Virus record (IMG/VR): IMGVR_UViG_3300035660_000092
Location: 1 to 22,219 of that record
DNA: 22,219 nt
DNA from: a virus
Strand: one strand, 5' to 3'
Below, piece by piece: positions 2,927-19,632 of this stretch. Both the position numbers and the translations under genes were made by a program. How positions within the stretch are numbered: position 1 is the stretch's first letter; each line of letters opens with the position of its first letter. Below the pieces are notes generated by a model, which ran no database searches, was not told where the DNA came from, and saw only the letters and a program-made list of their open reading frames with translations.

Positions 2927-3811
2927 ATGCAAAGTTTGAGCAGAGTTGGAATGGATACCGGCCGTTTGACCACAGAGGAAACGACGTACATTGACAACCG
3001 CATTGTCGACGCTGTATACGCGCAGACTATCGGGCGCAACCTTTTCCCCGTATTCACTTTGCCTAACGCGGGTATCATGACTGTTCGAGGCTACAAGCGC
3101 GGTAAGATGTCAGCTGCCAGAATCAGCCTTCATGGCCAAGGCGGTTCAAAGGATCGCACCGAGAAAACTTCCTTCGACATCACCGTCCCCGTCATAGAAA
3201 AGGAATTTGACATTGAGTGGCGAGACCTTGAGGCAAGCCGTGGCAGTGGCATGCCCATAGACATAGGCGACGGCGAGGATGCAGCAAGAAGAGTTGCTGA
3301 GGATGAGGACAAACTGTTGATCACAGGCGAATACTCAGGATGGCGTGCCTGTGGCGTCGAAGGCTTAGCAACGGCAACGGGACGAAATACAAAGGCAAGT
3401 GCAGGCGCATGGCCAGCCAACAGCTTGACCGATCTCAGTGCCGCTATAGGTGAATTGGAGGCTGACGGTCACACACGGAGCAACGCATATGCGTGTGTGC
3501 TGCGCAGTTCTTGGGCTGCAAAACTCAGGGCACTCGTGACCAACACAGCTGAAAAGTGGACAAACGTCATTAAAGACCTGTTTCCGGCCGGAATCTACGT
3601 CAGTGACAGTCTCTACAGCAGCGCTGGACTTACGACGAGCGCACTGGCTCTGGAACTTGGGCAAGACAATTTTGAAATGGTAATCGGTCGAGACATTGAA
3701 ACACGCAAGACTCCTGACAAGTACGGCAACCTCGAGTGCGTAGTCCGTGAAGTCGTGGCACCAAGAATCAAGCGCCCCACAGCTATCTGCGAGTTAACAG
3801 CACTGACCTAA
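2927..3811 (+). CDS. Major capsid protein, HK97 fold, encapsulin-like
   Basis: 294 residues. It has the order of elements seen in encapsulin/Linocin-M18-like capsid proteins. An N-terminal helix follows TTEETTYIDNRIVDAVY. A glycine-rich strand region (TVRGYKRGKMSAARISLHG) leads to a long E-loop-like segment with VPVIEKEFDIEWRDLEASRG. Then come AARRVAEDEDKLLITGEY and GVEGLATATG. The A-domain follows, with LRSSWAAKLRAL, GIYVSDSLYSS, LELGQDNFEMVIGRDIET, and a final basic strand, REVVAPRIKRPTAI. In family-1 encapsulins the segment F-hydrophobic-hydrophobic-RDLEA-RG and the ED-LLI-GE stretch are the hallmark. It forms the icosahedral shell. A T-rich tract follows the stop. Confidence 0.78.
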   Translation: MQSLSRVGMDTGRLTTEETTYIDNRIVDAVYAQTIGRNLFPVFTLPNAGIMTVRGYKRGKMSAARISLHGQGGSKDRTEKTSFDITVPVIEKEFDIEWRDLEASRGSGMPIDIGDGEDAARRVAEDEDKLLITGEYSGWRACGVEGLATATGRNTKASAGAWPANSLTDLSAAIGELEADGHTRSNAYACVLRSSWAAKLRALVTNTAEKWTNVIKDLFPAGIYVSDSLYSSAGLTTSALALELGQDNFEMVIGRDIETRKTPDKYGNLECVVREVVAPRIKRPTAICELTALT

Positions 3812-3899: not shown

Positions 3900-4115
3900 A
3901 TGAAGTTCAAACTCAAGAAGGGCAAGGGATCAGTGGATAACTTCACCGATGCAGCGGGCGTGAAGCATTTGCCAGGTGATGTTGTGGAGCTGCCGAAGAG
4001 TTATCTGGGTGAGAAGTGGCTTGAGCCTGTTGAGCCTAAGCCTGAGCCTACGATGGTTCCGGTGAAGCCTGAAGAACCTGTTGCCCCGAAGAAGGAAAAA
4101 AAGTCAAAGTCTTAG
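3900..4115 (+). CDS. Small Lys/Pro-rich head-module protein, candidate frameshift donor
   Basis: 71 residues, with a strong ribosome site (AAAGGAGGGTTGA) ending about 13 nt before the ATG. The first 45 residues look like the small beta domain found in short proteins encoded after phage capsid genes: KLKKGKGSVDNF, then AGVKHLPGDVVELPKSY and EKWLEPVE. A linker of Pro-Glu-Lys repeats follows (EPKPEPT, VKPEEPVAPKK), and the end is KEKKSKS. I do not recognise a specific function. The last codons contain the slippery heptamer A_AAA_AAG (4097-4103). A -1 shift there would fuse residues 1-68 to the glycosyltransferase-like protein encoded next. The zero-frame stop is TAG at 4113-4115. Confidence 0.6.
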   Translation: MKFKLKKGKGSVDNFTDAAGVKHLPGDVVELPKSYLGEKWLEPVEPKPEPTMVPVKPEEPVAPKKEKKSKS

Positions 4116-4138
4116 TCGGCATTCCGTTGACGGAGCCG
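4097..4138 (+). promoter_or_regulatory. Predicted -1 programmed ribosomal frameshift signal
   Basis: A_AAA_AAG sits in the correct phase, with codons GAA AAA AAG in the zero frame. Thirteen nt downstream, 4117-4138 folds as CGGC-AT-TCCG-TTGA-CGGA-GCCG, two stacked 4-bp stems with a 2-nt bulge and a TTGA loop. A slip to -1 leads into a frame open from 4073 to the glycosyltransferase stop at 4774. The predicted fusion is 291 residues. A heptamer plus 3' hairpin is the standard architecture of -1 frameshift sites. A purine-rich stretch, GAAGAAGGA, lies immediately upstream. Confidence 0.6.
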
Positions 4139-4774
4139 ATGTATCACATGCAGTATCGCGATAGGGTACTGGAAGGCATAAGGCAGGCTTGTGAGGGTGC
4201 TCAGCGTCTGGCGGAGTTCCAGGTTTTCGTAAATGAGGCTACAAAGAAGCAACTTCTTGCTGGCGTGGTTGAAGCTACCAACATGCTTGTGGATAAGTGT
4301 ATCCGTGAAGGTTTTGATTATTTATGGATCGTTGAGGCTGACGTGGTTGTGCCTCGCGGCGCGTTTTTGAGGCTTTTCAGGCCCTTGGCTGACATTAATT
4401 TGGGGTTTTATCCGAACCATCGGGTTGATTTGAGGTTGATGGCTGGCTACTTCAAGCTTGGTCGGCAAGGCAACCCTCCGACAGTTGTCAGCGTTACCGA
4501 TGTGCCAGCCTTGAAGGGCAAGGTTTTCACGGGTATGGTCTGCGCTGGGATCGGCTGCGCCCTGATTCACAGGCGAGTGTTCGAGGCTGGATTAGATTTC
4601 AAGTACGACCCGCAACTGTACACGGCAAAAGTGGGCGTGCACGACCAGCTTTTCCTCTACCTAGCCCAATGGGAATACGAGTTTTCTGTCTACTTGCATG
4701 GTGACGTTATTTGTGGACATCTGCCGGAGTGGCCACTTGAGAGACTTTCAGCCGTTTTGGAGGCTTCAGGGTGA
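4127..4774 (+). CDS. Glycosyltransferase-like protein (GT-A fold), probably made by frameshift
   Basis: The reading frame gives 215 residues from a TTG at 4127, or 223 from the slip site at 4103. Upstream, KVKVLVGIPLTEP reads like the first beta strand of a GT-A Rossmann half. No ATG or GTG start precedes it in this frame, and the TTG lacks a ribosome site. Other fold features are the helix YRDRVLEGIRQACEGA, the metal-site-like segment FDYLWIVEADVVVPRGAF (DxD-like EAD), a mid-domain MVCAGIGCALIHRRVFE, and the late acidic/His elements GVHDQLFLYLAQ and GDVICGHLPEW. These resemble GT2-like transferases. It would transfer a sugar from a nucleotide donor. The target is unknown, but the next gene, overlapping by 4 nt (GTGA), encodes a collagen-like fibre. 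Confidence 0.62.
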   Translation: MTEPMYHMQYRDRVLEGIRQACEGAQRLAEFQVFVNEATKKQLLAGVVEATNMLVDKCIREGFDYLWIVEADVVVPRGAFLRLFRPLADINLGFYPNHRVDLRLMAGYFKLGRQGNPPTVVSVTDVPALKGKVFTGMVCAGIGCALIHRRVFEAGLDFKYDPQLYTAKVGVHDQLFLYLAQWEYEFSVYLHGDVICGHLPEWPLERLSAVLEASG

Positions 4775-5859
4775 GCGAGGATGCTGCCGAGGTTTTGAGG
4801 CGAAACCGTGAACTGCTGCAAGCTCAGAGAGATAGCCAGGAGAGCGAGCGACTCCTAGAGAAGCTTCCGCAAGGGCACGGTTCAGGGCTTAATGCGGATA
4901 TGGTTGACGGGATGCACGCCTCGGAGATTCTTGCCAAGGCTCCAGGTAAGCGAGGCGGAGGAGGCGCAACAGGGGGCGGGACACCAGGGCCCCAAGGTCC
5001 TCAAGGCGAAGTCGGTCCAGTCGGTCCGCAAGGTGAACAGGGAGCTCAGGGTATTCAGGGCGCTCAGGGGATCCAGGGTGAAACTGGACCGCAAGGCGCT
5101 AAGGGCGACAAAGGGGATACAGGGTCTCAAGGTCAGCAGGGTATCCAAGGCGAGCAGGGTATTCAAGGTCAAACTGGCGCGACAGGTGCGAAGGGTGATA
5201 AGGGCGATAAAGGCGACACTGGCGACGCGGGACCTAACACTGTCACAACATCAACAACCACGAATCTTACTGGCTTGTTGAAGGGCGATGGCGCACATGT
5301 AGGTGTTTCATCTTCAACTGAGGCTGATGTGGCTGACGCCATAACCAAGAAACACGCCAAAAACGCGGATACAGATTTAGAAAGTACCTTTGAAGCCACC
5401 TTTGAAAAAGTTGCCAATAAAGACGCGGCATCTGGCTATGCGGGATTATCTGCAGGGTCCAAGCTTGCGACTTCTCAGATGCCAACGGCAACAATCAAGA
5501 CTACGTTAACTTTGGCTGACGCTTCCGACCCTTTGACAACAGGCACAGATAAAGCTCCGACGCTTCTTTCTCCGGGCACTTTGACAATAACGAAGGTGAA
5601 GCTTGTGGTCAAGACGGCGCCGGTGGGAGCTGCCATAATCGTTGACGTCAACAAGGGGGGAACCACGATATTTACTAATCAGGCCCATCGACCGCAGATC
5701 GCCGCGGGAGCCACGACGGGAGAAACAAGCACCATTGACGTTTCAGGCCTTGTCGAAGATGACAAATTAACGTTTGACATCGACCAGGTGGGTTCTTCGA
5801 CTCCAGGCAGCAAGATCACGGTTGAAGTTGTCACAAGTCAGGCGGTGGCCTTTTCATGA
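4771..5859 (+). CDS. Collagen-like fibre protein (virion fibre)
   Basis: 362 residues from a GTG that overlaps the previous stop (GTGA). Residues 1-35 form a charged helix. GLNADMVDGMHASEIL (about 39-54) matches the short A-x-VDG-hydrophobic-AS motif that often precedes fibre shafts in phage tail fibres. Residues 73-156 are 28 uninterrupted Gly-X-Y triplets, rich in GPQ, GIQ, GAK, GDK and GDT (DNA 4987-5238), which predicts a trimeric collagen helix about 24 nm long at 0.29 nm per residue. Residues 230-362 form a beta-rich head domain (KVKLVVKTAPVGAAIIVDVN). Its place between the capsid and connector genes suggests a capsid or neck fibre rather than a baseplate fibre. The DNA of the triplet region is necessarily repetitive. 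Confidence 0.75.
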   Translation: MSEDAAEVLRRNRELLQAQRDSQESERLLEKLPQGHGSGLNADMVDGMHASEILAKAPGKRGGGGATGGGTPGPQGPQGEVGPVGPQGEQGAQGIQGAQGIQGETGPQGAKGDKGDTGSQGQQGIQGEQGIQGQTGATGAKGDKGDKGDTGDAGPNTVTTSTTTNLTGLLKGDGAHVGVSSSTEADVADAITKKHAKNADTDLESTFEATFEKVANKDAASGYAGLSAGSKLATSQMPTATIKTTLTLADASDPLTTGTDKAPTLLSPGTLTITKVKLVVKTAPVGAAIIVDVNKGGTTIFTNQAHRPQIAAGATTGETSTIDVSGLVEDDKLTFDIDQVGSSTPGSKITVEVVTSQAVAFS

Positions 5860-7190: not shown

Positions 7191-8813
7191 ATGGGCACCG
7201 TTCCGAGCGTCTATTACGAGTACATAATGCACTATGCGCCTTGGTTTTATGTCTTGACTACGGCGATGGCTGCGGACCCGCCAGGAGGACAAAAAGACAT
7301 TCTCGTCACAGATGGTATGCAATTCTCTGCCAACATGCCAGCAGAAATTAAGGATTCCGCTCACAGCGAATGGAACGAGGTTGATTCGGTTCTTGGCAAC
7401 GTTGTTACCATGAAAAACAATCTAGCCTACACTTATTATGTCGCAAAAGGAGGCACTGTGGATCACCCGGATATCAGTTTCATGAAAGGTGCTTTTCCGG
7501 CTGCTTTTGCCATCGAATTCTTGTATGAAGCCTATTCCGCATCTCAGTATTTACTCCTGCAGGCCACGATTCTCGCGAAGATCGTAGAGCTCACCGATTG
7601 GCTCTTGACTCAGCAGTGCACAGATCCAGCGCGGAAGGCGTATGGCGGGTTTGCTTCAGCTGACGGCGGGACAGAGTTTTACGCGATTGACGCGGGTCGT
7701 GTGATTCCTGCTCTGCTTAAGGCTTATGCTCTTGTCGGGACGAGCGGATATCTTGATGCCGCTAAGCTTGCGGGCTACACTTTTTTGTATACCATGCAGC
7801 ATGAACCCTCAAACTTGGGGATTCATGATAGGTACTATGGTGGCTTCGCTACGAAAGTGACCATTGCAGACGCTTGGGACGTGACCATGAGCGTCGAAAA
7901 TCTGTATTGTTTGATTGGCTTGAAAATGCTGGCTAATACTTACGATGTGGCTAATGCCTCGCGGTATATCGCGATGATGGCTGATGCTTCCGACTTTCTG
8001 CGTGACGGTTTCGAACAGATCTACCTCTACTACAGTCCGCCGCCTTCTGGTCTTGGTCGATGGTGGCGTGTGGGTCTACAAGACACTGAGATCTATGACG
8101 ATCCCGTGAGTTTTGCGCTCTTGGGCTTGTACATTTATGAGGCTTGGAGCCTGACATGCCAGCGCGTCTACAACTTTCTTCAAGCAATTCGCGCTAGTGG
8201 CCAATATCCTGCCTACTGGCCCGAAATTTGCTGGCCCGGTTACGTCGATGTGATTAGTCGATTCCCGGCTTGTGCATACTATGACGCGATCACGACTGGG
8301 ATTCTGGGAAAAATCCGACAGGAACGAGACCCGCCAAGCTGCAAACTCGCCCATCAAGTCGTTGAAAAGTACGCAGATGAATTCATGTACTGGGGACCAA
8401 TTTTTAGCGATTACAGCCCGATAACGGGTCAGAAAGCGATGGCTAACGTCACCTGGCTCGCAAGAATGTTTCTCAATTACGAGGAGCCTCTCACTCGGTT
8501 CACGAGGATTTTGAATAGCAAGGGCGAGGCTGTGCTCTTGTATCCCGTGCGGCAAGCGGTTGAAACCGTATCATACGGCGAGCCCTTAGACATTTTTGCG
8601 GTTGTTTCGCCCGTGCGGGTTGAAGAGGTCTTGCTCGAGGCGGGATATCTCTTGAACGACTATCTAGCGTTTTACACGTTTGTGCCGGTGCGCAACCATG
8701 ATAAAATCAGGCGAAAAGGCGAGGACTACGAAATTCAGACGTTGCAGGCCTTCACCTACGAGAATCAGACCATCTATTTCAAATCGATTGCTAGGAGGTT
8801 GGTTGCTACCTAA
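7191..8813 (+). CDS. Fusion: alpha/alpha-toroid (glycosidase-like) domain plus head-closure domain
   Basis: 540 residues. Residues about 100-430 have the repeated helix-pair pattern of alpha/alpha-toroid enzymes (six-hairpin glycosidases, terpenoid-cyclase-like lyases): AIDAGRVIPALLKAYALVG with a following YLDAA helix, SVENLYCLIGLKMLANTYD, and PVSFALLGLYIYEAWS. Between the helices are aromatic and acidic loops (KAYGGFASADGGTEFY, HDRYYGGFATK, DTEIYDDP) that could form a sugar-binding cleft. Residues about 432-540 are different. TRFTRILNSKGEAVLLYPV, GEPLDIFAVVSPVRVEEVLL and a terminal RNHDKIRRKGEDYEIQTLQA have the small beta-barrel pattern of phage head-closure/stopper proteins. That matches the gene's place directly after the connector. 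So a conserved neck protein carries a large, probably glycan-active, N-terminal domain. Catalytic residues cannot be assigned from sequence alone. Confidence 0.6.
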   Translation: MGTVPSVYYEYIMHYAPWFYVLTTAMAADPPGGQKDILVTDGMQFSANMPAEIKDSAHSEWNEVDSVLGNVVTMKNNLAYTYYVAKGGTVDHPDISFMKGAFPAAFAIEFLYEAYSASQYLLLQATILAKIVELTDWLLTQQCTDPARKAYGGFASADGGTEFYAIDAGRVIPALLKAYALVGTSGYLDAAKLAGYTFLYTMQHEPSNLGIHDRYYGGFATKVTIADAWDVTMSVENLYCLIGLKMLANTYDVANASRYIAMMADASDFLRDGFEQIYLYYSPPPSGLGRWWRVGLQDTEIYDDPVSFALLGLYIYEAWSLTCQRVYNFLQAIRASGQYPAYWPEICWPGYVDVISRFPACAYYDAITTGILGKIRQERDPPSCKLAHQVVEKYADEFMYWGPIFSDYSPITGQKAMANVTWLARMFLNYEEPLTRFTRILNSKGEAVLLYPVRQAVETVSYGEPLDIFAVVSPVRVEEVLLEAGYLLNDYLAFYTFVPVRNHDKIRRKGEDYEIQTLQAFTYENQTIYFKSIARRLVAT

Positions 8814-9898
8814 TGGTCCGTAACTGGAAGCTAGTACCGCCCAAGCTCAGAAAGGGGTCGTGGAATAGTCTCATCAACGATTTCGTCGAGCTCTCACCCG
8901 TATACGTGCAGAAAAACAACGGCGAAGACCTACTACAAACGGTTGCAGCCGATTATCCCGAGCGAAAAATAAAGATTCCCCCCGGAACCTTTATAGTCGA
9001 TGAACCGCTCTGTCCCGTCGGAACCGACGATGAAGAAGCAACGATTTTAGGCACAAAAGAAGGCATTATTGAGGGTTGCGGCGAAAGAACTATAATAAAA
9101 GCTGCTGCAGGTGTGAGTCCAACCGTAAAGTACGCGCACTATCACGGCCACGGAACATACGCGCAAAGCCGCCCCGTCTTGCGAGATCTCTGCATAGACG
9201 CAAATGGAAACCAAGACTGCCTTGAGCTTGACAATGTCAAGCATGGCGAGTTTAAACACTTGCTGCTCAAGAATTTTACAAGATATGGGCATCACTCACT
9301 AGGATACTCAACGACAACCAGCGGTCATAGCTACTGGAATCTACTGCGAGATGTCAGGGTTTCCACCGGAGCTTGTACCGCTGCCCTATGCGCTGAAAAA
9401 AACGCGATTGACAACTTTTATGAACACATCTGGGGAACGGCGAACGGCATCGGTTTTCTATGCAAAGGAGACGGAGGGCACATTCTGAGGGACCTATGGC
9501 TTGTTGATGTAATCAACGAAATAAAGTTACACGCCATCGACGATGATATTTACGACATAACAATTCAGAACGCCCGTATCGACACCCCAACAGATCATGG
9601 TATTCTCATGGAACTAGACAACCACAGCATCAACCGCGTAAAAGTCCTATCGCCACACTTTTTCAAGATTCCCCTCGCGAAAGATAACTTCAACTTTGTT
9701 GGCTTCGCAGAGAAAGGCTTTGCACATTTGTTAATCGACGGTCCTGACGATGATACATCTGTGCCAAGATGGAACTATAACTGGAATGGCGTTGGCACAT
9801 TCCCAACGACAAATCAGATTCGCACCAATAAATTGACCCTCGGGTCAAGCGGGAAAAATAACAACGTTCCGGCGGGGTGCTTCACATGCGAGGCTTAA
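8813..9898 (+). CDS. Right-handed beta-helix (pectate-lyase-like) spike protein
   Basis: 361 residues. The ATG shares one base with the previous TAA. RKIKIPPGTFIVDEPLCPVG is the typical first coil of phage-type pectate-lyase-3 domains (Y-x-hydrophobic-PxGTF-hydrophobic). It is followed by ATILGTKEGIIEGCGERTII and PVLRDLCIDANGNQDCLELD. Short repeating strands continue (WNLLRDVRVSTGACTAALCA, DDIYDITIQNARID, NHSINRVKVLS), as expected for stacked beta-helix coils. Virion proteins with this fold bind or cleave cell-surface polysaccharides. It lies between the head-closure and tail-completion genes, so it may be mounted on the neck rather than the tail tip. Active-site residues are not identifiable by eye. 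Confidence 0.62.
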   Translation: MVRNWKLVPPKLRKGSWNSLINDFVELSPVYVQKNNGEDLLQTVAADYPERKIKIPPGTFIVDEPLCPVGTDDEEATILGTKEGIIEGCGERTIIKAAAGVSPTVKYAHYHGHGTYAQSRPVLRDLCIDANGNQDCLELDNVKHGEFKHLLLKNFTRYGHHSLGYSTTTSGHSYWNLLRDVRVSTGACTAALCAEKNAIDNFYEHIWGTANGIGFLCKGDGGHILRDLWLVDVINEIKLHAIDDDIYDITIQNARIDTPTDHGILMELDNHSINRVKVLSPHFFKIPLAKDNFNFVGFAEKGFAHLLIDGPDDDTSVPRWNYNWNGVGTFPTTNQIRTNKLTLGSSGKNNNVPAGCFTCEA

Positions 9899-9902
9899 TG
9901 CC

Positions 9903-10967
9903 ATGCCAGACTACACGTATGTTGGTGACTTCGATGGAGAAGATTTTGATGCGGAGGACTTTTGGGTGAGCGCTGAGCTTGAGGATCCTGTTGCGACTCT
10001 TCTGCGGTTGATTACCTCGAGGATTCGTGTGGTAAAGGATAGCGGTTCGGTTGCCAGCATTTTGGCTACTGAGGCAGCCTACGATCGGGAGCTGTTGAAG
10101 GAGTATGATGCTCAAATCACGCTCGCTCTCGACCCGAATGTCGGAGTTCTGGACCAGAAACTCGAGCTCTCGGGACGTCTGAGACGCAGGTACATGGGCT
10201 TCAAGTGCAGTATCCATGCTGTGGATAAGTCAGCTCCTGGCAGTGATTCGGCCAGAGTAATGCGGAACAAAGTGACTGCACAGATCGAGGCTATTATACG
10301 AGAAAACCGAAACCTGCCCTATCAAACCGTCTACAACTTCAGTGGGCTCGGATATCCGAGTGGAGACCCTCACAAGGCCTTTGCTGCAGGTGCAGTAACT
10401 GACCTTGCGCCGTCGAGCACGTCGTGGGCTGAACTCTCCGTAGCGAATTATCAGAAAATCTGGTCCAGCGACGACGTTAGACACTCGAAAAGCACGACCG
10501 TGAGCGGTGAGTATGCTTTGATGCTTTTCAGGTTCAAGATCCAGCCTCGAGAGGCCTGTGTCAAGAAAGTTGTTATCAGCTTTGAGGGTTATGGCCTCTC
10601 CCCGAACGGCAACGGCGTACGGATGAAACTCTGGAATCACGAGTCTTCAGTTTGGGAACAGGAGCAATGGAACATTTGGGGCTCGGACATGACCCTAATA
10701 ATTACGCTGACGTCGGAGAGCGTGGATTACATCGACTCAAACGGCTACCTTTACGTTCTGGTCAAAACGCGGACCGCAAGCAACGGCGTCGATCCCGCGG
10801 TGCTATACTGCGATTTCGTTGAGTGCACGGTCCAGGTTTATGGGATCTCCCATGTTGACGTCATCACTTATCGAAACACCGAGGTGACCGATGTGAAGCC
10901 ACACGTTTTCCAGACCGAGTTTCTGCTGAAAGGCTGGCTTTTCGAAACAATCTCAGGAGCATTCTAG
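9903..10967 (+). CDS. Tail-completion/terminator-like protein with inserted beta-sandwich
   Basis: 354 residues. The N-terminal tip is acidic (GDFDGEDFDAEDF). Residues 28-145 have the pattern of tail-completion proteins: ATLLRLITSRIRVVKDSGS, then YDAQITLALDP and KLELSGRLRRRYMGFKCSIH, a helix RVMRNKVTAQIEAIIREN and NLPYQTVYNFSG. The last 35 residues (VDVITYRNTEV, FQTEFLLKGWLFETI) look like the end of that same fold. Residues about 165-312 break it with a beta-sandwich-like block: YALMLFRFKI, VKKVVISFEGYG, GVRMKLWNHESSVWE, MTLIITLTSE and YLYVLVKTRT. This resembles carbohydrate-binding jelly rolls. The gene's place just before the tail tube gene supports a neck or tail-terminator role. Confidence 0.55.
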   Translation: MPDYTYVGDFDGEDFDAEDFWVSAELEDPVATLLRLITSRIRVVKDSGSVASILATEAAYDRELLKEYDAQITLALDPNVGVLDQKLELSGRLRRRYMGFKCSIHAVDKSAPGSDSARVMRNKVTAQIEAIIRENRNLPYQTVYNFSGLGYPSGDPHKAFAAGAVTDLAPSSTSWAELSVANYQKIWSSDDVRHSKSTTVSGEYALMLFRFKIQPREACVKKVVISFEGYGLSPNGNGVRMKLWNHESSVWEQEQWNIWGSDMTLIITLTSESVDYIDSNGYLYVLVKTRTASNGVDPAVLYCDFVECTVQVYGISHVDVITYRNTEVTDVKPHVFQTEFLLKGWLFETISGAF

Positions 10968-10986
10968 TCATGGAGTTGACATAAAA

Positions 10987-11853
10987 ATGGTTGAAACATA
11001 TGGAGTGGACGAAGAGCGGTTCTATTTCGTGACCGAAAACGTGCTTGGAACTGTGCCGACGAATCCGGCGATGCTCAGCGTGCCCACTGATCCCATTGAC
11101 CCGGGTTTCGACCCGGGCAACTTGAAGTTGAGAGGACCCGGAAGTTATGATCTGCAAGCGATAAAAAAGGGTCTTCGGAAGCCCAGCTTGAAGATAGGTT
11201 ATGCGTTGCCCTCCGATGCGCCGATTGAGCTTTTGCAGTGGGCGAAAATGGATCTGGACAAGAGCCTCAGTTGCCAAGTAATATACTACAAGGGACTTTT
11301 TGCGTCTGCCTCGGACATTCTATCCCTACTATATAAGGGGATGCGAATCAGCAAAGTGTCGGTCCAGTGTGGCATCGAAGACGTAATCAAAGCGACAATG
11401 GAGCTTGAGGGGCAGGATCTTGAGACTGGAACCGCGAAGATTTCAGGAGCAAGCTATGCAGACCACTCGGGAGCGGTGCCCTTCCACGAGAGCTACGTAA
11501 AGAAGGCCACGAGCACACTGGAACGTGTGATTGATTGGAAATTCGATATCCTAAACCACCCGAGAAGGGTTCCCGTCATTCGCAGCACAAACGGACACCT
11601 TGCGAAGTACATTCCATTTGGCACTAGGGACTTGTCCGGTGAACTGGCTTTTGAGTTCGAAAGTAAGGAAGAGCTGGATGAGGCTCTAGCCGATGCGGAG
11701 TTTACTCTGGAATTCGGGCTAGGTGGCACGTGCAAGGCGGTTTTCACTGCATGCAAATGGGATACCATAACTCACACGAAATGGTTGGAAGACCTGATCT
11801 GCTGCAAGGCCCCGTTTGTCGCCAAGGGCCCTGTAGCGATCAGTGCCAGTTAG
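10987..11853 (+). CDS. Tail tube protein
   Basis: 288 residues from the ATG at 10987. The start GVDEERFYFVTENVLGTVP followed by NPAMLSVPTDPIDPGFDPGN and KGLRKPSLKIGYALPSDA is characteristic of archaeal and phage siphovirus tail-tube proteins. After it come alternating strands: SLSCQVIYYKGLF, MRISKVSVQCGIEDVIKATM and RDLSGELAFEFESKEELDEA. Subunits stack as hexameric rings to form the tail lumen. There is a single such gene and no sheath protein nearby, so the tail is probably non-contractile. Order with the tail-assembly chaperone and tape measure agrees. Confidence 0.72.
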   Translation: MVETYGVDEERFYFVTENVLGTVPTNPAMLSVPTDPIDPGFDPGNLKLRGPGSYDLQAIKKGLRKPSLKIGYALPSDAPIELLQWAKMDLDKSLSCQVIYYKGLFASASDILSLLYKGMRISKVSVQCGIEDVIKATMELEGQDLETGTAKISGASYADHSGAVPFHESYVKKATSTLERVIDWKFDILNHPRRVPVIRSTNGHLAKYIPFGTRDLSGELAFEFESKEELDEALADAEFTLEFGLGGTCKAVFTACKWDTITHTKWLEDLICCKAPFVAKGPVAISAS

Positions 11854-11867
11854 GAGGCTTGTGTCAC

Positions 11868-12002
11868 ATGGCGAGATTGTGCGCGATTTGTCTGGAGATT
11901 CGGATGCGACTGGCGAAGATGCCGCCGTGGAAGCGGAAAATCTTCCTAGACGACCTGCAGATTGCCGCTAGGAATCGCCTGAAGGTTCTGGAGGCTGCAT
12001 AA
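11868..12002 (+). CDS. 44-residue basic protein between tail tube and chaperone genes
   Basis: A short frame with a good ribosome site (GGAGG at 11853-11857, 10 nt before the ATG). The product begins MARLCAICLEIRMRLAKMPP, has one CxxC pair, then a basic amphipathic helix ending RNRLKVLEAA. It ends two bases before the next ATG, and the tight packing supports real translation. One CxxC could coordinate metal only as a dimer. I do not recognise the family. A small tail-assembly accessory protein is a possible role, on position alone. Confidence 0.5.
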   Translation: MARLCAICLEIRMRLAKMPPWKRKIFLDDLQIAARNRLKVLEAA

Positions 12003-12003
12003 A

Positions 12004-12468
12004 ATGAAGACGGAATGTTTGGAGATTGATGAGAGATTCGGGAAAGAATATCAGGGCAGCTACGTGTTCCGAGAGATCACGTGGGCTAAGCGGAACCGCA
12101 TCATTCAGAAGCACACCAAGTACAGCAAGGCCAGCGGCGAAGTTGAAAGCAGCGACTTCATAGCCATCCAAGCAGAGACCATCTGGGCATCGCTCCAAAA
12201 ACAACCAGAAACCAAACCCGTATCACTTGAAAGGCTTCTAGGCGAGGATATCGGGATCCCGATAGATCTCGGTGAATTGTTCTCAAAAGTCGCGAACAAA
12301 CTCAATGGCATGAGCCACGAGGATCTCCGTTTTTTACTCGAGCAGCTCGACGAGGAAAGCCGCACCCGGCTCTTTCAGAGTTTCGGCTTTGTCAAACCTT
12401 CGGATGGACCCCAACCCAGCTTGGAAACCAGCCAGCCCGAACAATCCAAGAATTCTGTGTCATCCTAA
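12004..12468 (+). CDS. Tail assembly chaperone, short form (gpG-like)
   Basis: 154 residues. GGAGG at 11990-11994 serves the ATG. The protein starts with a small beta part (CLEIDERFGKEYQGSYVFRE) and becomes helical: EITWAKRNRIIQKHTKY, then SSDFIAIQAETIWASLQKQP and MSHEDLRFLLEQLDEESRTR. The end is low-complexity (DGPQPSLETSQPEQSKNS). This composition, and a place between the tail tube and tape measure genes, is typical of the first chaperone that coats the tape measure during assembly. As in lambda G/GT, a second frame overlaps its 3' end and is reached by a -1 shift (next feature). Sequence identity to G itself is not evident, so context carries most of the call. Confidence 0.6.
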   Translation: MKTECLEIDERFGKEYQGSYVFREITWAKRNRIIQKHTKYSKASGEVESSDFIAIQAETIWASLQKQPETKPVSLERLLGEDIGIPIDLGELFSKVANKLNGMSHEDLRFLLEQLDEESRTRLFQSFGFVKPSDGPQPSLETSQPEQSKNSVSS

Positions 12469-12539
12469 ACGTGATGGACCAGATGGCGGAAGAAGAAAGG
12501 GCAAGAGCGGAGAAAGAGGCGAAAAAACATGGCCGTTGA
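12336..12539 (+). CDS. -1 frameshifted extension of the tail assembly chaperone (gpT-like part)
   Basis: The -1 frame is open across the end of the short form and continues to TGA at 12537-12539. It encodes a protein-like stretch: CQTFGWTPTQLGNQPARTIQ, followed by EFCVILNVMDQMAEEERARA and a basic end, EKEAKKHGR. FGWTPxxL followed by a helix and a charged tail is what T-type extensions look like. No ATG, GTG or TTG opens the protein-like part before GTG 12471, so a frameshift is needed. T_TTT_TTA at 12330-12336 is the only canonical in-phase heptamer I found in the overlap, and gives a 178-residue fusion. The first about 18 codons after it are Arg-rich and less convincing, so a slip nearer 12390 at a non-canonical site remains possible. 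Confidence 0.5.
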   Translation, partial: TRAARRGKPHPALSEFRLCQTFGWTPTQLGNQPARTIQEFCVILNVMDQMAEEERARAEKEAKKHGR

Positions 12540-12900
12540 AGTAACCTGCGACGTGGAAGGCATGGAGGAATTCCAAGCGGCGATGCAGAGGTTTGACGCT
12601 GCAATGCAGAACCAAGTATACCGCTTTTTGGCTAGCTGGGCTGCCGACGTGAAGGCTGCTGCAATGCGAAATGCTCGAGTTAGATCGGGATATCTGCGCA
12701 GTAAGATCTACGCTACGATAAAAGAGTGGGTTGCTGAGTTGGGTGCTGATACCACTTACGCGTTCTTCATCGAGTTCGGTACCAGGTACATGCAGGCTCA
12801 TCCGTACTTGTGGCCTGCGATTCAGGAGTACCTTCCGAGCCTTGAAATGAACATCATTGGAGCCTTGGAACAGGCGAAATCGGAGGCTGGCTTATCATGA
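12529..12900 (+). CDS. HK97 gp10-like tail/neck completion protein
   Basis: 123 residues, starting 11 nt inside the chaperone extension. It starts VEVTCDVEGMEEFQAAMQRF. A helix with AADVKAAAMRNARVRSGYLR follows, then strands ending in DTTYAFFIEFGTRYMQAHPY and an LWPAI helix. V-RSGxLRxSI followed by Y-x-xFIEFGT-xMxAHPYLxPA is the signature of the HK97 gp10 family, involved in joining head and tail. In most siphoviruses this gene precedes the tail tube gene. Here it sits between the chaperone and the tape measure, which is an unusual position. It overlaps the next gene by 4 nt (ATGA). Confidence 0.72.
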   Translation: MAVEVTCDVEGMEEFQAAMQRFDAAMQNQVYRFLASWAADVKAAAMRNARVRSGYLRSKIYATIKEWVAELGADTTYAFFIEFGTRYMQAHPYLWPAIQEYLPSLEMNIIGALEQAKSEAGLS

Positions 12901-13439
12901 GTTTTCGTGAGATCGCTGTTACGATTCGCGCTATCAATAGGGCAAGTAGCGAGTTCGCCAGAATTCAGACCGATGCTGAGGCCTTGACCGCGCGGATAAA
13001 GAATATGGGTCTAGCGATCGCGGGGATAGGCGCGACTGGCGTCGCGATAGGGCACATTGCCCACGAGTTCGGCTTGTTGAACGATCAGCAGGCTCGCACT
13101 TTCACTTCCATTATGTCTGTCGTGACCGTTATGGGTATGTTCATGAATACATCTATCGGTGTAGCCATTGCACAGAAAGTGTACGCTGCTGCATGCTGGA
13201 TCGCCACAGCTGCTCAAAATGCGCTCAACATCAGCTACGCGACGTTTTTGGCACTGACTGGTGTCGGGATCGCTGTGATCGTGACGGCTGCCGCTGCTAT
13301 GTGGGCTTTCTCGTCAAGCATGAATGCCGCCACTTCGAGCGTTCAGAGTTTTAATTCGGCTGCTGCGGAGATTCCATCCCAAGGGCGCAACATTCAGCGT
13401 GCCGGCGAACTGGATCTGGCACGTCGTGGAGTCGAGTGA
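12897..13439 (+). CDS. Very short tape measure-like protein
   Basis: 180 residues. The start SFREIAVTIRAINRASSEFA then TDAEALTARIKNM is a typical tape-measure N terminus (a strand followed by a long helix). Three hydrophobic stretches follow: GLAIAGIGATGVAIGHIA (about 38-55), TFTSIMSVVTVMGMFM to about 100, and ALTGVGIAVIVTAAAAMWAF (about 118-137). They match the hydrophobic core of tape measures, including a LNISYATFLALTGVG-type turn. Typical tape measures have 600 or more residues. At about 0.15 nm per residue, this one would measure a tail of only about 27 nm. It is followed by the hub gene in a GTGA overlap, and I see no frameshift extension or second piece. Confidence 0.6.
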   Translation: MSFREIAVTIRAINRASSEFARIQTDAEALTARIKNMGLAIAGIGATGVAIGHIAHEFGLLNDQQARTFTSIMSVVTVMGMFMNTSIGVAIAQKVYAAACWIATAAQNALNISYATFLALTGVGIAVIVTAAAAMWAFSSSMNAATSSVQSFNSAAAEIPSQGRNIQRAGELDLARRGVE

Positions 13440-16359: not shown

Positions 16360-16777
16360 GGAAGAGACTAAACTGCGAGATCTCCTCTCCACGAGAGAAC
16401 CCGTCAGTTCGATCGCTAAAGCTCTCGGGAAAACAAAGGGTTCCATCTATGCGAAGATTGACGAGATGGGGATTGTGTTAAAAGAAGAAGAGACGCCTGC
16501 ACGAAAAGGTCTCGCTTCTTCTTCTAACTTGAAGCTGCCTCGTCAGCTGCCAAGCATCGAGAAAGCGATGAAGCGCCTCGTGCGTGCACTGAATGAGTTG
16601 GAGAAGCCGGGCCTTGACATCGTTGAGGTGCAACGGTTGCGGGGCATCATTCAGGGTGTGAAGATCTACAAGGACATTTTCGCGGACTACGTCGATTATC
16701 GGGCTATTGAGGATATGCTGCTTGATTTGAGGCAGAAATATGAACAGCTTGTTCAGAAGACGACGAAGAAAGCTTGA
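16331..16777 (+). CDS. terS: Terminase small subunit
   Basis: 148 residues from a GTG with a strong site (AAGGAGGAA, about 6 nt before). Residues 6-50 form a SANT/Myb-like helix-turn-helix (PWSREEETKLRDLLSTREPV, then SIAKALGKTKGSIYAKIDEM). That is the DNA-recognition domain of many terminase small subunits. The second half is helical with long coiled-coil-like helices (IEKAMKRLVRALNELEKPG, YRAIEDMLLDLRQKYEQL), suited to forming a ring. It recognises the packaging start site on the concatemer and hands it to the large subunit. The next gene, with a 38-nt overlap, is the large subunit. Confidence 0.68.
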   Translation: MTKGKPWSREEETKLRDLLSTREPVSSIAKALGKTKGSIYAKIDEMGIVLKEEETPARKGLASSSNLKLPRQLPSIEKAMKRLVRALNELEKPGLDIVEVQRLRGIIQGVKIYKDIFADYVDYRAIEDMLLDLRQKYEQLVQKTTKKA

Positions 16778-18191
16778 CCTCAGAAGGTTTCTGAGGGAAG
16801 AGGACAGCCTCCTCAGTGACGTGAGATTTAGAGAGATCGCTGAAGACGAGAAGGTCACAGAGTTGCAGTTCGACGCTGTCCAGTTCTTCCGTCAAGTTCT
16901 GGGGTTCGAACCTTACGAGTACCAGAAGGAATTCATCAAACTGTTCGAAGAGAACCAATTTCTCGCGGCGCGTTGGTGTAGGCAGAGCGGCAAAAGCTGG
17001 ACCGTCTCAGCTCTATTACTGAATTACGCGCTCAAACACCCAGACAGCTACATAGCTGCTGTCGGTCCTTCGTGGCGTCAAACCAAACTTAACATCAGGC
17101 GCATAACCTATTTTCTGCGCAAGATCCCACCCGACTTGTACTATAAGCCTCAGCGCACGGTACTCAGGTTCACGAACGGCAGCGTGATCGAGGCTTTTCC
17201 TAACAATCCAGAAACGATACGTGGGCCAACATTGAGCGTTATATGGTGGGATGAGAGCGCATGGACTCCTTGCGATGCCGACCTTTACGACGCGATTCTC
17301 TTCACGTTGGGGACGACGAACGGAAAACTGATCTGCACGAGCACGCCGTGGAATAGCGATTCGCTGTTCTGGAAGATCTGTAACCATAAGGACTTCAGTG
17401 ATTTTGCGAGGCATCACGTCACTTGGGAGCAGGCTCAGGAGCCGAACGGACCGCTGAAAAAGGCCATTCTGGACAAGATCAGGAAGCAGTTCCGCGAGGA
17501 TCCCGCACGGTGGCGTCGTGAGATGGAGGCTGAGTGGGCTGAGGATGAGAACGTTTGGCTGCCGCAGAGCTTGATTGTGTCGTGCGTGGGCACTGAGAAA
17601 AATTGTGGCGAGGATCTGCAGCCTTGGAACCCTGAACAAGGAAATCAAGGCGATCTCTTCGCTGGCTTAGATCTCGCCCAAGTGCGAGATTATTGCGTTT
17701 TCAGCGTGTTAGAACGATTGAATGATAAACTTTTCCTGCGACACTTGAAGATTTTCATGCAGCCGACGAAGTACGCTCACGTTCTGGGTTACATAAAGAC
17801 CTTGCAGGATCGTTGGGGCGGCTTCCAAAAAATCCGGGTTGACTTCACGAAGGAGGGCCCGAGCATCATCAGCGACATGGAAGATGCGGGAATCAAGAAC
17901 GCTGAAGGTGTTACATTTTCTGTGCCGCGCAAGAGCGAAATGGCCAGCTTGCTCAAGCAGCGGATGGGTGATCAGAAGCTTTTCTATCCGCTCTTGACGT
18001 GGGAGAAGCCTTACAGAGGCGATATCTGCAGCGAGTTGAACCTGGAGCGATATGAATTGCGCAAGGACGGAGCCCAAGCGTTCAGCCATCCCAATGGTAC
18101 GCACGACGATGTTTTCTGGTCCATTGCCCTGGGCGTTTATGCCACTGTCGCCATGAAAACCTTCGATCTAGAGGCTATACGCTTTGGTTAG
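16740..18191 (+). CDS. terL: Terminase large subunit (packaging ATPase and nuclease)
   Basis: 483 residues, a typical length. The basic N terminus (RRRRRKLDLRR) precedes an adaptor, GFEPYEYQKEF. ATPase motifs: Walker A WCRQSGKSW (about 79-87), Walker B SVIWWDESAW (about 166-175) with the catalytic Glu, and coupling motif ICTSTPWN (about 198-205). The RNase-H-like nuclease follows, with acidic residues in FAGLDLAQVRD (about D310), IRVDFTKEG (about D367) and GTHDDVFWSI (about D455/456). It translocates DNA into the procapsid and cuts it. Unusually, the terminase genes follow the tail genes here instead of preceding the portal. That is consistent with a circularly permuted or circular map. The stop overlaps the next start by 8 nt. 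Confidence 0.92.
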   Translation: MNSLFRRRRRKLDLRRFLREEDSLLSDVRFREIAEDEKVTELQFDAVQFFRQVLGFEPYEYQKEFIKLFEENQFLAARWCRQSGKSWTVSALLLNYALKHPDSYIAAVGPSWRQTKLNIRRITYFLRKIPPDLYYKPQRTVLRFTNGSVIEAFPNNPETIRGPTLSVIWWDESAWTPCDADLYDAILFTLGTTNGKLICTSTPWNSDSLFWKICNHKDFSDFARHHVTWEQAQEPNGPLKKAILDKIRKQFREDPARWRREMEAEWAEDENVWLPQSLIVSCVGTEKNCGEDLQPWNPEQGNQGDLFAGLDLAQVRDYCVFSVLERLNDKLFLRHLKIFMQPTKYAHVLGYIKTLQDRWGGFQKIRVDFTKEGPSIISDMEDAGIKNAEGVTFSVPRKSEMASLLKQRMGDQKLFYPLLTWEKPYRGDICSELNLERYELRKDGAQAFSHPNGTHDDVFWSIALGVYATVAMKTFDLEAIRFG

Positions 18192-19632
18192 ACACCGCGA
18201 GCCTCTCAGGATCCACAGGTTCCGGCGCGTCTACGATAGGACAGAGGGCAAGTTTCGCTTTCAAATAAGCTACTCCACATCTGCAGAACTCACGCCGCGG
18301 ACCATTGCGGTTGCTCAGGCTTTCGGTCTAGGCATTGACGAGGGAAGGAAATTCACGGTTCTCGATACCGAGCTAAAAATAGGAGTTGGCGACGTCGTTT
18401 ATATCACTGGCGACAGTGGCAGCGGCAAAAGCGTTCTGTTGAATGCCCTTGAAAAAGATATCAGGCGAGGCATGCGGGAAACCTGCATCAATGTTGCAGA
18501 CGTGAAATTGCAGCACAATAACCCGTTGATCGAAACGGTGGGCGAAACCGTCGAAGAGGGCTTGGAGCTGCTAAGTAGGGTCGGTTTGAATGATGCTTTT
18601 CTCTTCCTTCGTACTTTTCGAGAGCTGTCGGATGGTCAAAAGTATCGCTACCGTATCGCCAAGATGGTCGAGAGTGGAGCGCGGTTCTGGGTGATGGATG
18701 AGTTTGCGGCTACGCTGGATCGTGATACGGCTAAGATCGTGGCTTTCAACCTTCAGAAGCTCGCCAAGGCTCTCGGCAGGTCTGTAATCGTGGCAACGAC
18801 GCACAAAGATCTGTTTGAGGATTTGAAGCCTAGCGTATACGTGCACAAGCGTTTTGGCAAGGAAATCACCGTAAACTATTACCCGAATGAGCCTGCAGGA
18901 GAGTGCAGCCTAGCCAAAGAGATGCAGGTCGAGGTTGGCAGCCGAAAGGATTGGCACGGTCTGGAGGAATTCCATTACCGGAGCCGAAACCTGGGAGCTG
19001 CTAGGAAAATCTTCTGTCTAAAGCGCGGGGAAGAGCTCTGCGGCGTGATCGTGTACTGTTATCCGCCGATGAACTGCGCCGGAAGAAATAAGGTCTTGCC
19101 AAGGATGGCTGTGAAGGAGATGAATGAGAAGGTGAGTATAATTTTGAGGGTTGTAGTCCATCCCAAGTACCGCACTATTGGGTTGGGTGTTAGGCTGATT
19201 CGCGAGACGTTGCCGCTTGTGGGCACAAGGTACGTTGAGATGTCTGCCGTCATGGCCAAATATAACCCGTTCGCTGAGAAGGCAGGCATGCGCAAAGTCG
19301 TTGAGCAAGCGCCCGCGAAAGAAGCGGTTAAGATATCCAAGGTTCTGAGCGATGTTGGTTTTAACCTGCGGTTGCTGAGCAGCGAAAGGTATGTGTGTAG
19401 TGTACTATATAACTTGAGCCCTGAGCAACTGGCCAGAGTCAAACAGGTCTTGGCGAAGAATGATAATCCGCGTCTGCGGAAAGAGCTTGGTGATCGGCAC
19501 AGGCCTTTCGGAAACTCGGCTGCTTATGTGGCTGCAGTTCAAGGCGCGGATTCTGCAAATTTGGCCAGGGTTATCCGTGTGGTCGGGATGCTTTTGCAGA
19601 CGAAGGTTTACCTGTTCTGGGGTAAACCATAA
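18184..19632 (+). CDS. ABC-type ATPase fused to GNAT acetyltransferase
   Basis: 482 residues from a TTG inside the end of terL, with no gap, so the two are probably co-translated. ABC elements: Walker A GDSGSGKS (76-83), signature-like LSDGQKYRYRIAK (about 148-160), Walker B FWVMDEFAATLD with the catalytic Glu (about 168-179), and switch His in ATTHKD (about 207). There are no membrane segments, so it is soluble. Residues about 255-375 form a GNAT fold: FCLKRGEELCGVIVYCYPP, then IILRVVVHPKYRTIGLGVRL, containing the acetyl-CoA loop R-x-x-G-x-G, and MSAVMAKYNPFAEKAGM. The last about 100 residues are helical. The substrate is unknown. Linkage to the terminase suggests a packaging-related or DNA-end-related role, but modification of host components is possible. 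Confidence 0.8.
   Translation: MVRHREPLRIHRFRRVYDRTEGKFRFQISYSTSAELTPRTIAVAQAFGLGIDEGRKFTVLDTELKIGVGDVVYITGDSGSGKSVLLNALEKDIRRGMRETCINVADVKLQHNNPLIETVGETVEEGLELLSRVGLNDAFLFLRTFRELSDGQKYRYRIAKMVESGARFWVMDEFAATLDRDTAKIVAFNLQKLAKALGRSVIVATTHKDLFEDLKPSVYVHKRFGKEITVNYYPNEPAGECSLAKEMQVEVGSRKDWHGLEEFHYRSRNLGAARKIFCLKRGEELCGVIVYCYPPMNCAGRNKVLPRMAVKEMNEKVSIILRVVVHPKYRTIGLGVRLIRETLPLVGTRYVEMSAVMAKYNPFAEKAGMRKVVEQAPAKEAVKISKVLSDVGFNLRLLSSERYVCSVLYNLSPEQLARVKQVLAKNDNPRLRKELGDRHRPFGNSAAYVAAVQGADSANLARVIRVVGMLLQTKVYLFWGKP

Follow-up and report, generated by a model that had tools for sequence, protein, structure and literature searches.

The analyzed DNA, referred to here as the window, comprises 22,219 bases of the IMG/VR virus record IMGVR_UViG_3300035660_000092. 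A gene for a major capsid protein is followed by a small open reading frame (ORF), by a second frame that overlaps it, and by a fibre gene, with a large terminase gene elsewhere in the window:

2927..3811, plus strand: HK97-fold major capsid protein gene, Linocin_M18/encapsulin-like (Pfam PF04454, 1.6e-19; PHROG 264)
3900..4115, plus strand: small ORF, the 0-frame product of 71 aa, with its TAG stop at 4113-4115
4073..4115, plus strand: two-frame overlap, bounded by the -1-frame opening and the 0-frame stop
4097..4103, plus strand: A_AAA_AAG, a slippery heptamer in the phase of the small ORF
4103..4774, plus strand: predicted GT-A fold glycosyltransferase domain, the -1-frame product of 223 aa (alignment, AlphaFold2, Foldseek)
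4117..4138, plus strand: 4+4-bp hairpin with a TTGA loop, which may act as a local stimulator and lacks conservation across the family
4771..5859, plus strand: fibre gene with a collagen-like repeat (PF01391, 1.5e-11), not part of the fusion
16740-18191: large terminase gene

An open -1 frame spans 4073-4774; it encodes KKVKVLVGIP, and its first ATG, GTG, or TTG is the TTG at 4127, 3′ of KVKVLVGIP. Within the overlap, seven A residues at 4096-4102 are followed by a G and are read by the small ORF in the codons GAA (4095-4097), AAA, and AAG. A slip at this heptamer would yield a fusion of 291 aa (68 + 223), for which the predicted junction-spanning peptide is …KKEKKVKVLVGIP…. An earlier sequence-only reading of this DNA had proposed that the transferase lacks a credible start, that its KVKVLVGIP strand lies upstream of the only usable TTG, that A_AAA_AAG sits in the right phase, that the slip runs in the direction needed to join the frames, and that the fusion, about 291 residues long, places a small beta domain and a Lys/Pro-rich tether in front of the enzyme; all of this was supported on re-examination, and in their frame relation, their in-phase heptamers, and their lack of starts the relatives described below agree. 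The window by itself is nevertheless unconvincing, since an in-phase heptamer arises in about 30% of synonymous resamplings of its Lys-rich tail (P about 0.3), and the decision therefore falls to the relatives.

As a single-sequence query, the window transferase gave no matches in viral, genome, and phage collections. The window capsid protein returned three contigs, two of which, L003 and L004, have the same gene pair. Alignment-based searches then enlarged the set to 18 IMG/VR contigs with the small ORF and the transferase, namely the window, L005-L018, L026, L032, and L039, the contigs of L003 and L004 being numbered L016 and L017 in this set. In 17 of the 18 loci the capsid gene lies 5′ of the small ORF, the L026 contig being cut off there. 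The transferase frame is at -1 relative to the small ORF in every locus, and it is intact across 212-406 codons in these divergent sequences. The proposal had also called for homologues in which the two parts form one frame; in all 18 gene pairs they lie in different frames.

The enzyme part is predicted to have a GT-A fold. Its AlphaFold2 model has a pTM of 0.82, and Foldseek matched it at a probability of 1.00 with numerous entries for GT-A enzymes and nucleotidyltransferases (TM 0.4-0.56), including COLGALT1, GalNAc-T2, STIV A197, and nucleotide-sugar pyrophosphorylases. No Pfam match was obtained for the transferase, while the L004 protein has a weak profile match to PHROG 12406, glycosyltransferase (6e-4). 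The aligned transferases (the window and 14 relatives, 36-61% identical to that of the window) have invariant Asp, His, and Gly positions, among them D80, which is the second Asp of a DxD-like motif and its only invariant one, D181, and H206. In 13 of these 15 members a methyltransferase domain (PF08241) follows in frame, and by sequence L039 shares this extension, making 14 loci in all; the window, L005, L026, and L032 have no methyltransferase in the transferase frame. In L005, an ORF at 4611-5132, 3′ of the transferase and in a different frame, appears methyltransferase-like as judged by eye. In the window it is the fibre gene that follows, its GTG start overlapping the transferase stop, and a long collagen-like Gly-X-Y run occupies 4978-5230; no such run occurs 3′ of the transferase in the 17 relatives. 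The COLGALT1 matches had suggested the collagen-like fibre as an acceptor, a reading rejected family-wide because the long repeat occurs in the window only.

Where could translation of this enzyme begin? Twelve of the 18 loci lack any ATG, GTG, or TTG between the frame opening and the end of beta strand 1 (VLVGIP), and in another four (L005, L006, L013, and L018) such codons are present only within that strand, so that 16 loci are without a start ahead of it and an earlier one is possible in only two. These two are L007 and L008, where a GTG and the small-ORF stop share bases (GTGA) and coupled reinitiation is possible. Beta strand 1 is conserved in all 18 loci; in the window model it spans residues 2-7, with a mean pLDDT of 91 over the first ten residues. 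The TTG at 4127 corresponds to residue 9, and initiation there would thus delete the strand. L019, a distant transferase homologue in another gene setting, has in-frame ATGs well upstream of the fold. As for the small ORF, its conserved N-terminus falls on CTG in L006 (2037), L013 (3765), L015 (3768), and L018 (3765), and on ACG in L008 (3747). The position of these codons behind a strong GGAGG suggests non-standard start codons for the small protein in some relatives; the window small ORF also has a strong GGAGG upstream.

An in-phase X_XXY_YYZ heptamer lies inside the overlap in all 18 loci. Sites of the form C_CCT_TTA/G occur in 15 loci and A_AAA_AAR in 13, with both present in 10; L009, L016, L017, L032, and L039 have C_CCT_TTR without A_AAA_AAR, while the window, L008, and L012 have only the latter. 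Synonymous resampling gave an expectation of 4.0 loci with any heptamer against the 18 seen, counts that are not independent because the loci are related, and of 0.5 loci with CCCTTT against 15. Codon choice points the same way: wherever the tail has [AVSI]-P-L, the codons are xxC CCT TTR (15/15 loci) even though the first residue varies, vs. 0/17 occurrences of such a tripeptide in long ORFs from these contigs. On this sequence comparison, C_CCT_TTA/G is the main predicted slippery site of the family, and the window would rely on a second one. Its nearest relative, L005, has both sites, of which the window retains only the second (A_AAA_AAG). On the transferase tree the A-only state has two distinct positions, one at the window and one at L008/L012, and the C-only state likewise has more than one. 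Each locus has kept at least one site, the absence of site-free loci not being itself significant at these frequencies. CCCTTTR and AAAAAAR both allow the P- and A-site tRNAs to re-pair one base back, and the interchange of CCCTTT and AAAAAA is as predicted by such tandem re-pairing.

Homologous small ORFs that lie behind related capsid genes in viruses without the transferase served as a control (L058/L035, L061, L062, L064, L067, L068, L070, L071, and L073). The heptamer is absent from the tail in seven of these nine. L070 has A_AAA_AAA at the very end of its small ORF, and L035 keeps C_CCT_TTA at 5162-5168 (the same site in L058) though the fibre gene is next and there is no transferase; a slip there would append just a few residues, and we read L058/L035 as a recent loss of the enzyme. 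The difference between 18/18 loci with the enzyme and 2/9 without it gives a Fisher p of 4e-5, uncorrected for relatedness.

A 3′ stimulator is common at -1 sites and is not strictly required. Of the nested hairpin singled out in the sequence-only reading, the structure itself is real, pairing CGGC (4117-4120) with GCCG (4135-4138) and CCG (4124-4126) with CGG (4131-4133) and starting 13 nt 3′ of the heptamer, whereas its generality failed: it recurs only in L005, where one outer pair has changed from C-G to G-C with compensation. It may be a local stimulator in the window. Conserved structure downstream of the heptamers was sought across the loci, with no consensus. Folding energies of the 75 nt downstream were low in the window (z = -2.3) and L017 (z -3.9) and unremarkable in the other loci, mostly with z > -1.3. 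Pairing of upstream sequence with the anti-Shine-Dalgarno ranged from -1.8 to -9.5 kcal/mol, mostly weak and at varying distances. Stimulators usually lie 5-9 nt downstream, in contrast to the 13 nt of the window hairpin (PMC8211752), and a stem-loop or pseudoknot at that usual spacing was not found.

We consider it very probable, from the comparison of these loci, that the overlap is a programmed -1 ribosomal frameshift site from which both a free small protein and an enzyme fusion would be made. From the frame relation, the missing starts, and the conservation of the heptamers, all observed, we infer that the slip takes place in the cell. The majority of ribosomes would complete the small head-region protein, while a minority would move back by one base at a heptamer suited to tandem slippage in the Pro/Lys-rich tail, A_AAA_AAG in the window and C_CCT_TTA/G, often followed by A_AAA_AAG, in relatives, and enter the -1 frame. 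The resulting chain would consist of the N-terminal domain of the small protein, a flexible tether, and the GT-A glycosyltransferase, with a SAM methyltransferase domain next, in frame, in most relatives. The enzyme would thus depend on the slip: ribosome slippage would set its dose, and the small head-region protein its location.

Other accounts of the overlap fare less well. An independent transferase start, or one coupled to termination on the small ORF, at a non-ATG codon near the stop or at TTG 4127, would fit the short distance between that stop and the transferase N-terminus, the suitably placed GTGA of L007 and L008, and the apparent use of CTG, ACG, or TTG by the small ORF itself in some relatives. 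However, the other 16 loci have GTC, ATA, GTA, TTA, ATC, or similar at that place, initiation at TTG 4127 would lose residues 2-7 of the fold, and the in-phase heptamers would be left unexplained; we regard such a start as unlikely. Slippage of the transcript rather than of the ribosome could occur at the A runs of the window and 12 relatives, but the five loci with C_CCT_TTR only have no long homopolymer, which excludes it as a general cause, and the phase requirement is exactly kept throughout, making this explanation highly improbable.

Two further possibilities would remove the need for any recoding. The A7 run is of an error-prone kind and the window is a single metagenomic contig, so a one-base sequencing or assembly error might have split what is truly one frame; yet the -1 relation recurs in 17 more contigs, and the overlaps of five of these contain no A_AAA_AAR at all; error is thereby excluded as a family-wide cause and is hardly credible for the pair as a whole. 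It is just as implausible that the -1 frame is a decaying remnant from which no enzyme is produced: the enzyme has been wholly lost in L035, but elsewhere the reading frame is intact in all 18 divergent loci and has invariant Asp, His, and Gly positions.

The small protein has a beta-rich N-terminal part of ~45 aa, modeled by AlphaFold2 with a pLDDT of 86-89 over residues 1-40, and a Pro/Lys-rich tail in which pLDDT is low; profile searches gave no family match and structure comparison no informative fold match. Its occurrence without the enzyme in nine related viruses implies that it has its own function near the capsid gene, and its place beside that gene and its size would be compatible with a decoration protein. 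The small protein may bind the capsid, with the fusion recruited to the particle or displayed on it, a reading that we advance tentatively. The capsid-bound small protein would then carry a small number of enzyme molecules to the particle or onto it, where the recruited enzyme might modify capsid or envelope glycans.

Frameshift-extended coat proteins are known from phages T3 and T7 (gene 10), Lactobacillus phage A2, and Listeria phages A118, A500, and PSA (PMC5009743), and Ig-like extensions of coat and tail proteins are added in this way (PMC5009743; PMC6669499). In the phages named, as proposed here, frameshifting places a second domain on a minority of head-protein copies; there, however, an Ig-like or other non-enzymatic domain is carried by a major capsid or tail protein, whereas here a glycosyltransferase (-methyltransferase) would be carried by a separate small protein. 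TpeX and the SPP1-type major tail protein extensions likewise add a carbohydrate-related domain through a programmed frameshift, in their case a carbohydrate-binding module on the tail tube rather than an enzyme (PMC6669499). In archaeal tailed viruses, -1 frameshifting has been described for tail chaperones (PMC5009743), with the same slip at X_XXY_YYZ in another gene, module, and product. STIV A197, COLGALT1, and GalNAc-T2 share the predicted fold at 12-15% identity and a TM of about 0.5. A search of the open-access literature found no case in which frameshifting attaches an enzyme to a virion protein. To our knowledge, the extensions that frameshifting adds to virion proteins are domains for binding or structure and none is an enzyme of this kind, and programmed frameshifting is thinly documented in archaeal viruses.

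The window virus is tailed and probably infects archaea of sediments or hot springs. Relatives have HerA-like and DUF553 transglutaminase genes, which fit an archaeal host, while the archaeal replication and repair markers Hjc and MCM had no match in them; the transferase alignment, searched against species genomes, matched none, so no host genome is directly linked. Fuxivirus (proposed Fuxiviridae, Bathyarchaeia) is a ~32-kb member of the Caudoviricetes with an HK97 capsid and type IV-B cas/CysH genes, and the main text of its description mentions no frameshift (PMC10848311). A possible link to the present group is indirect, through RAMP and CysH-like genes in G017, the contig of L039. On that contig (L046, 5060-7263, minus strand) a RAMP/Cas7-like gene (PF03787) adjoins a PAPS-reductase CysH-like gene (PF01507), a pair that makes up the type IV-B CRISPR signature reported for Fuxivirus. 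Speculatively, an archaeal tailed-virus lineage may use frameshifting to tether a glycan-building pair of glycosyltransferase and methyltransferase to the particle via a capsid-associated protein, with two consecutive, interchangeable slippery sites (C_CCT_TTR and A_AAA_AAR) as redundant switches and no conserved stimulator. The family offers -1 sites, in probably archaeal viruses, that are conserved as a set and vary naturally among its members, and the proposed fusion predicts where such viruses would modify glycans. Also conserved in the group, beside or near the terminase, is an ABC-type ATPase with an acetyltransferase-like C-terminal part, found in the window at 18184-19632, in L042 at 10061-11542, in L043 at 8631-10160, in L045 at 11532-12992, and in L046 at 16409-17857.
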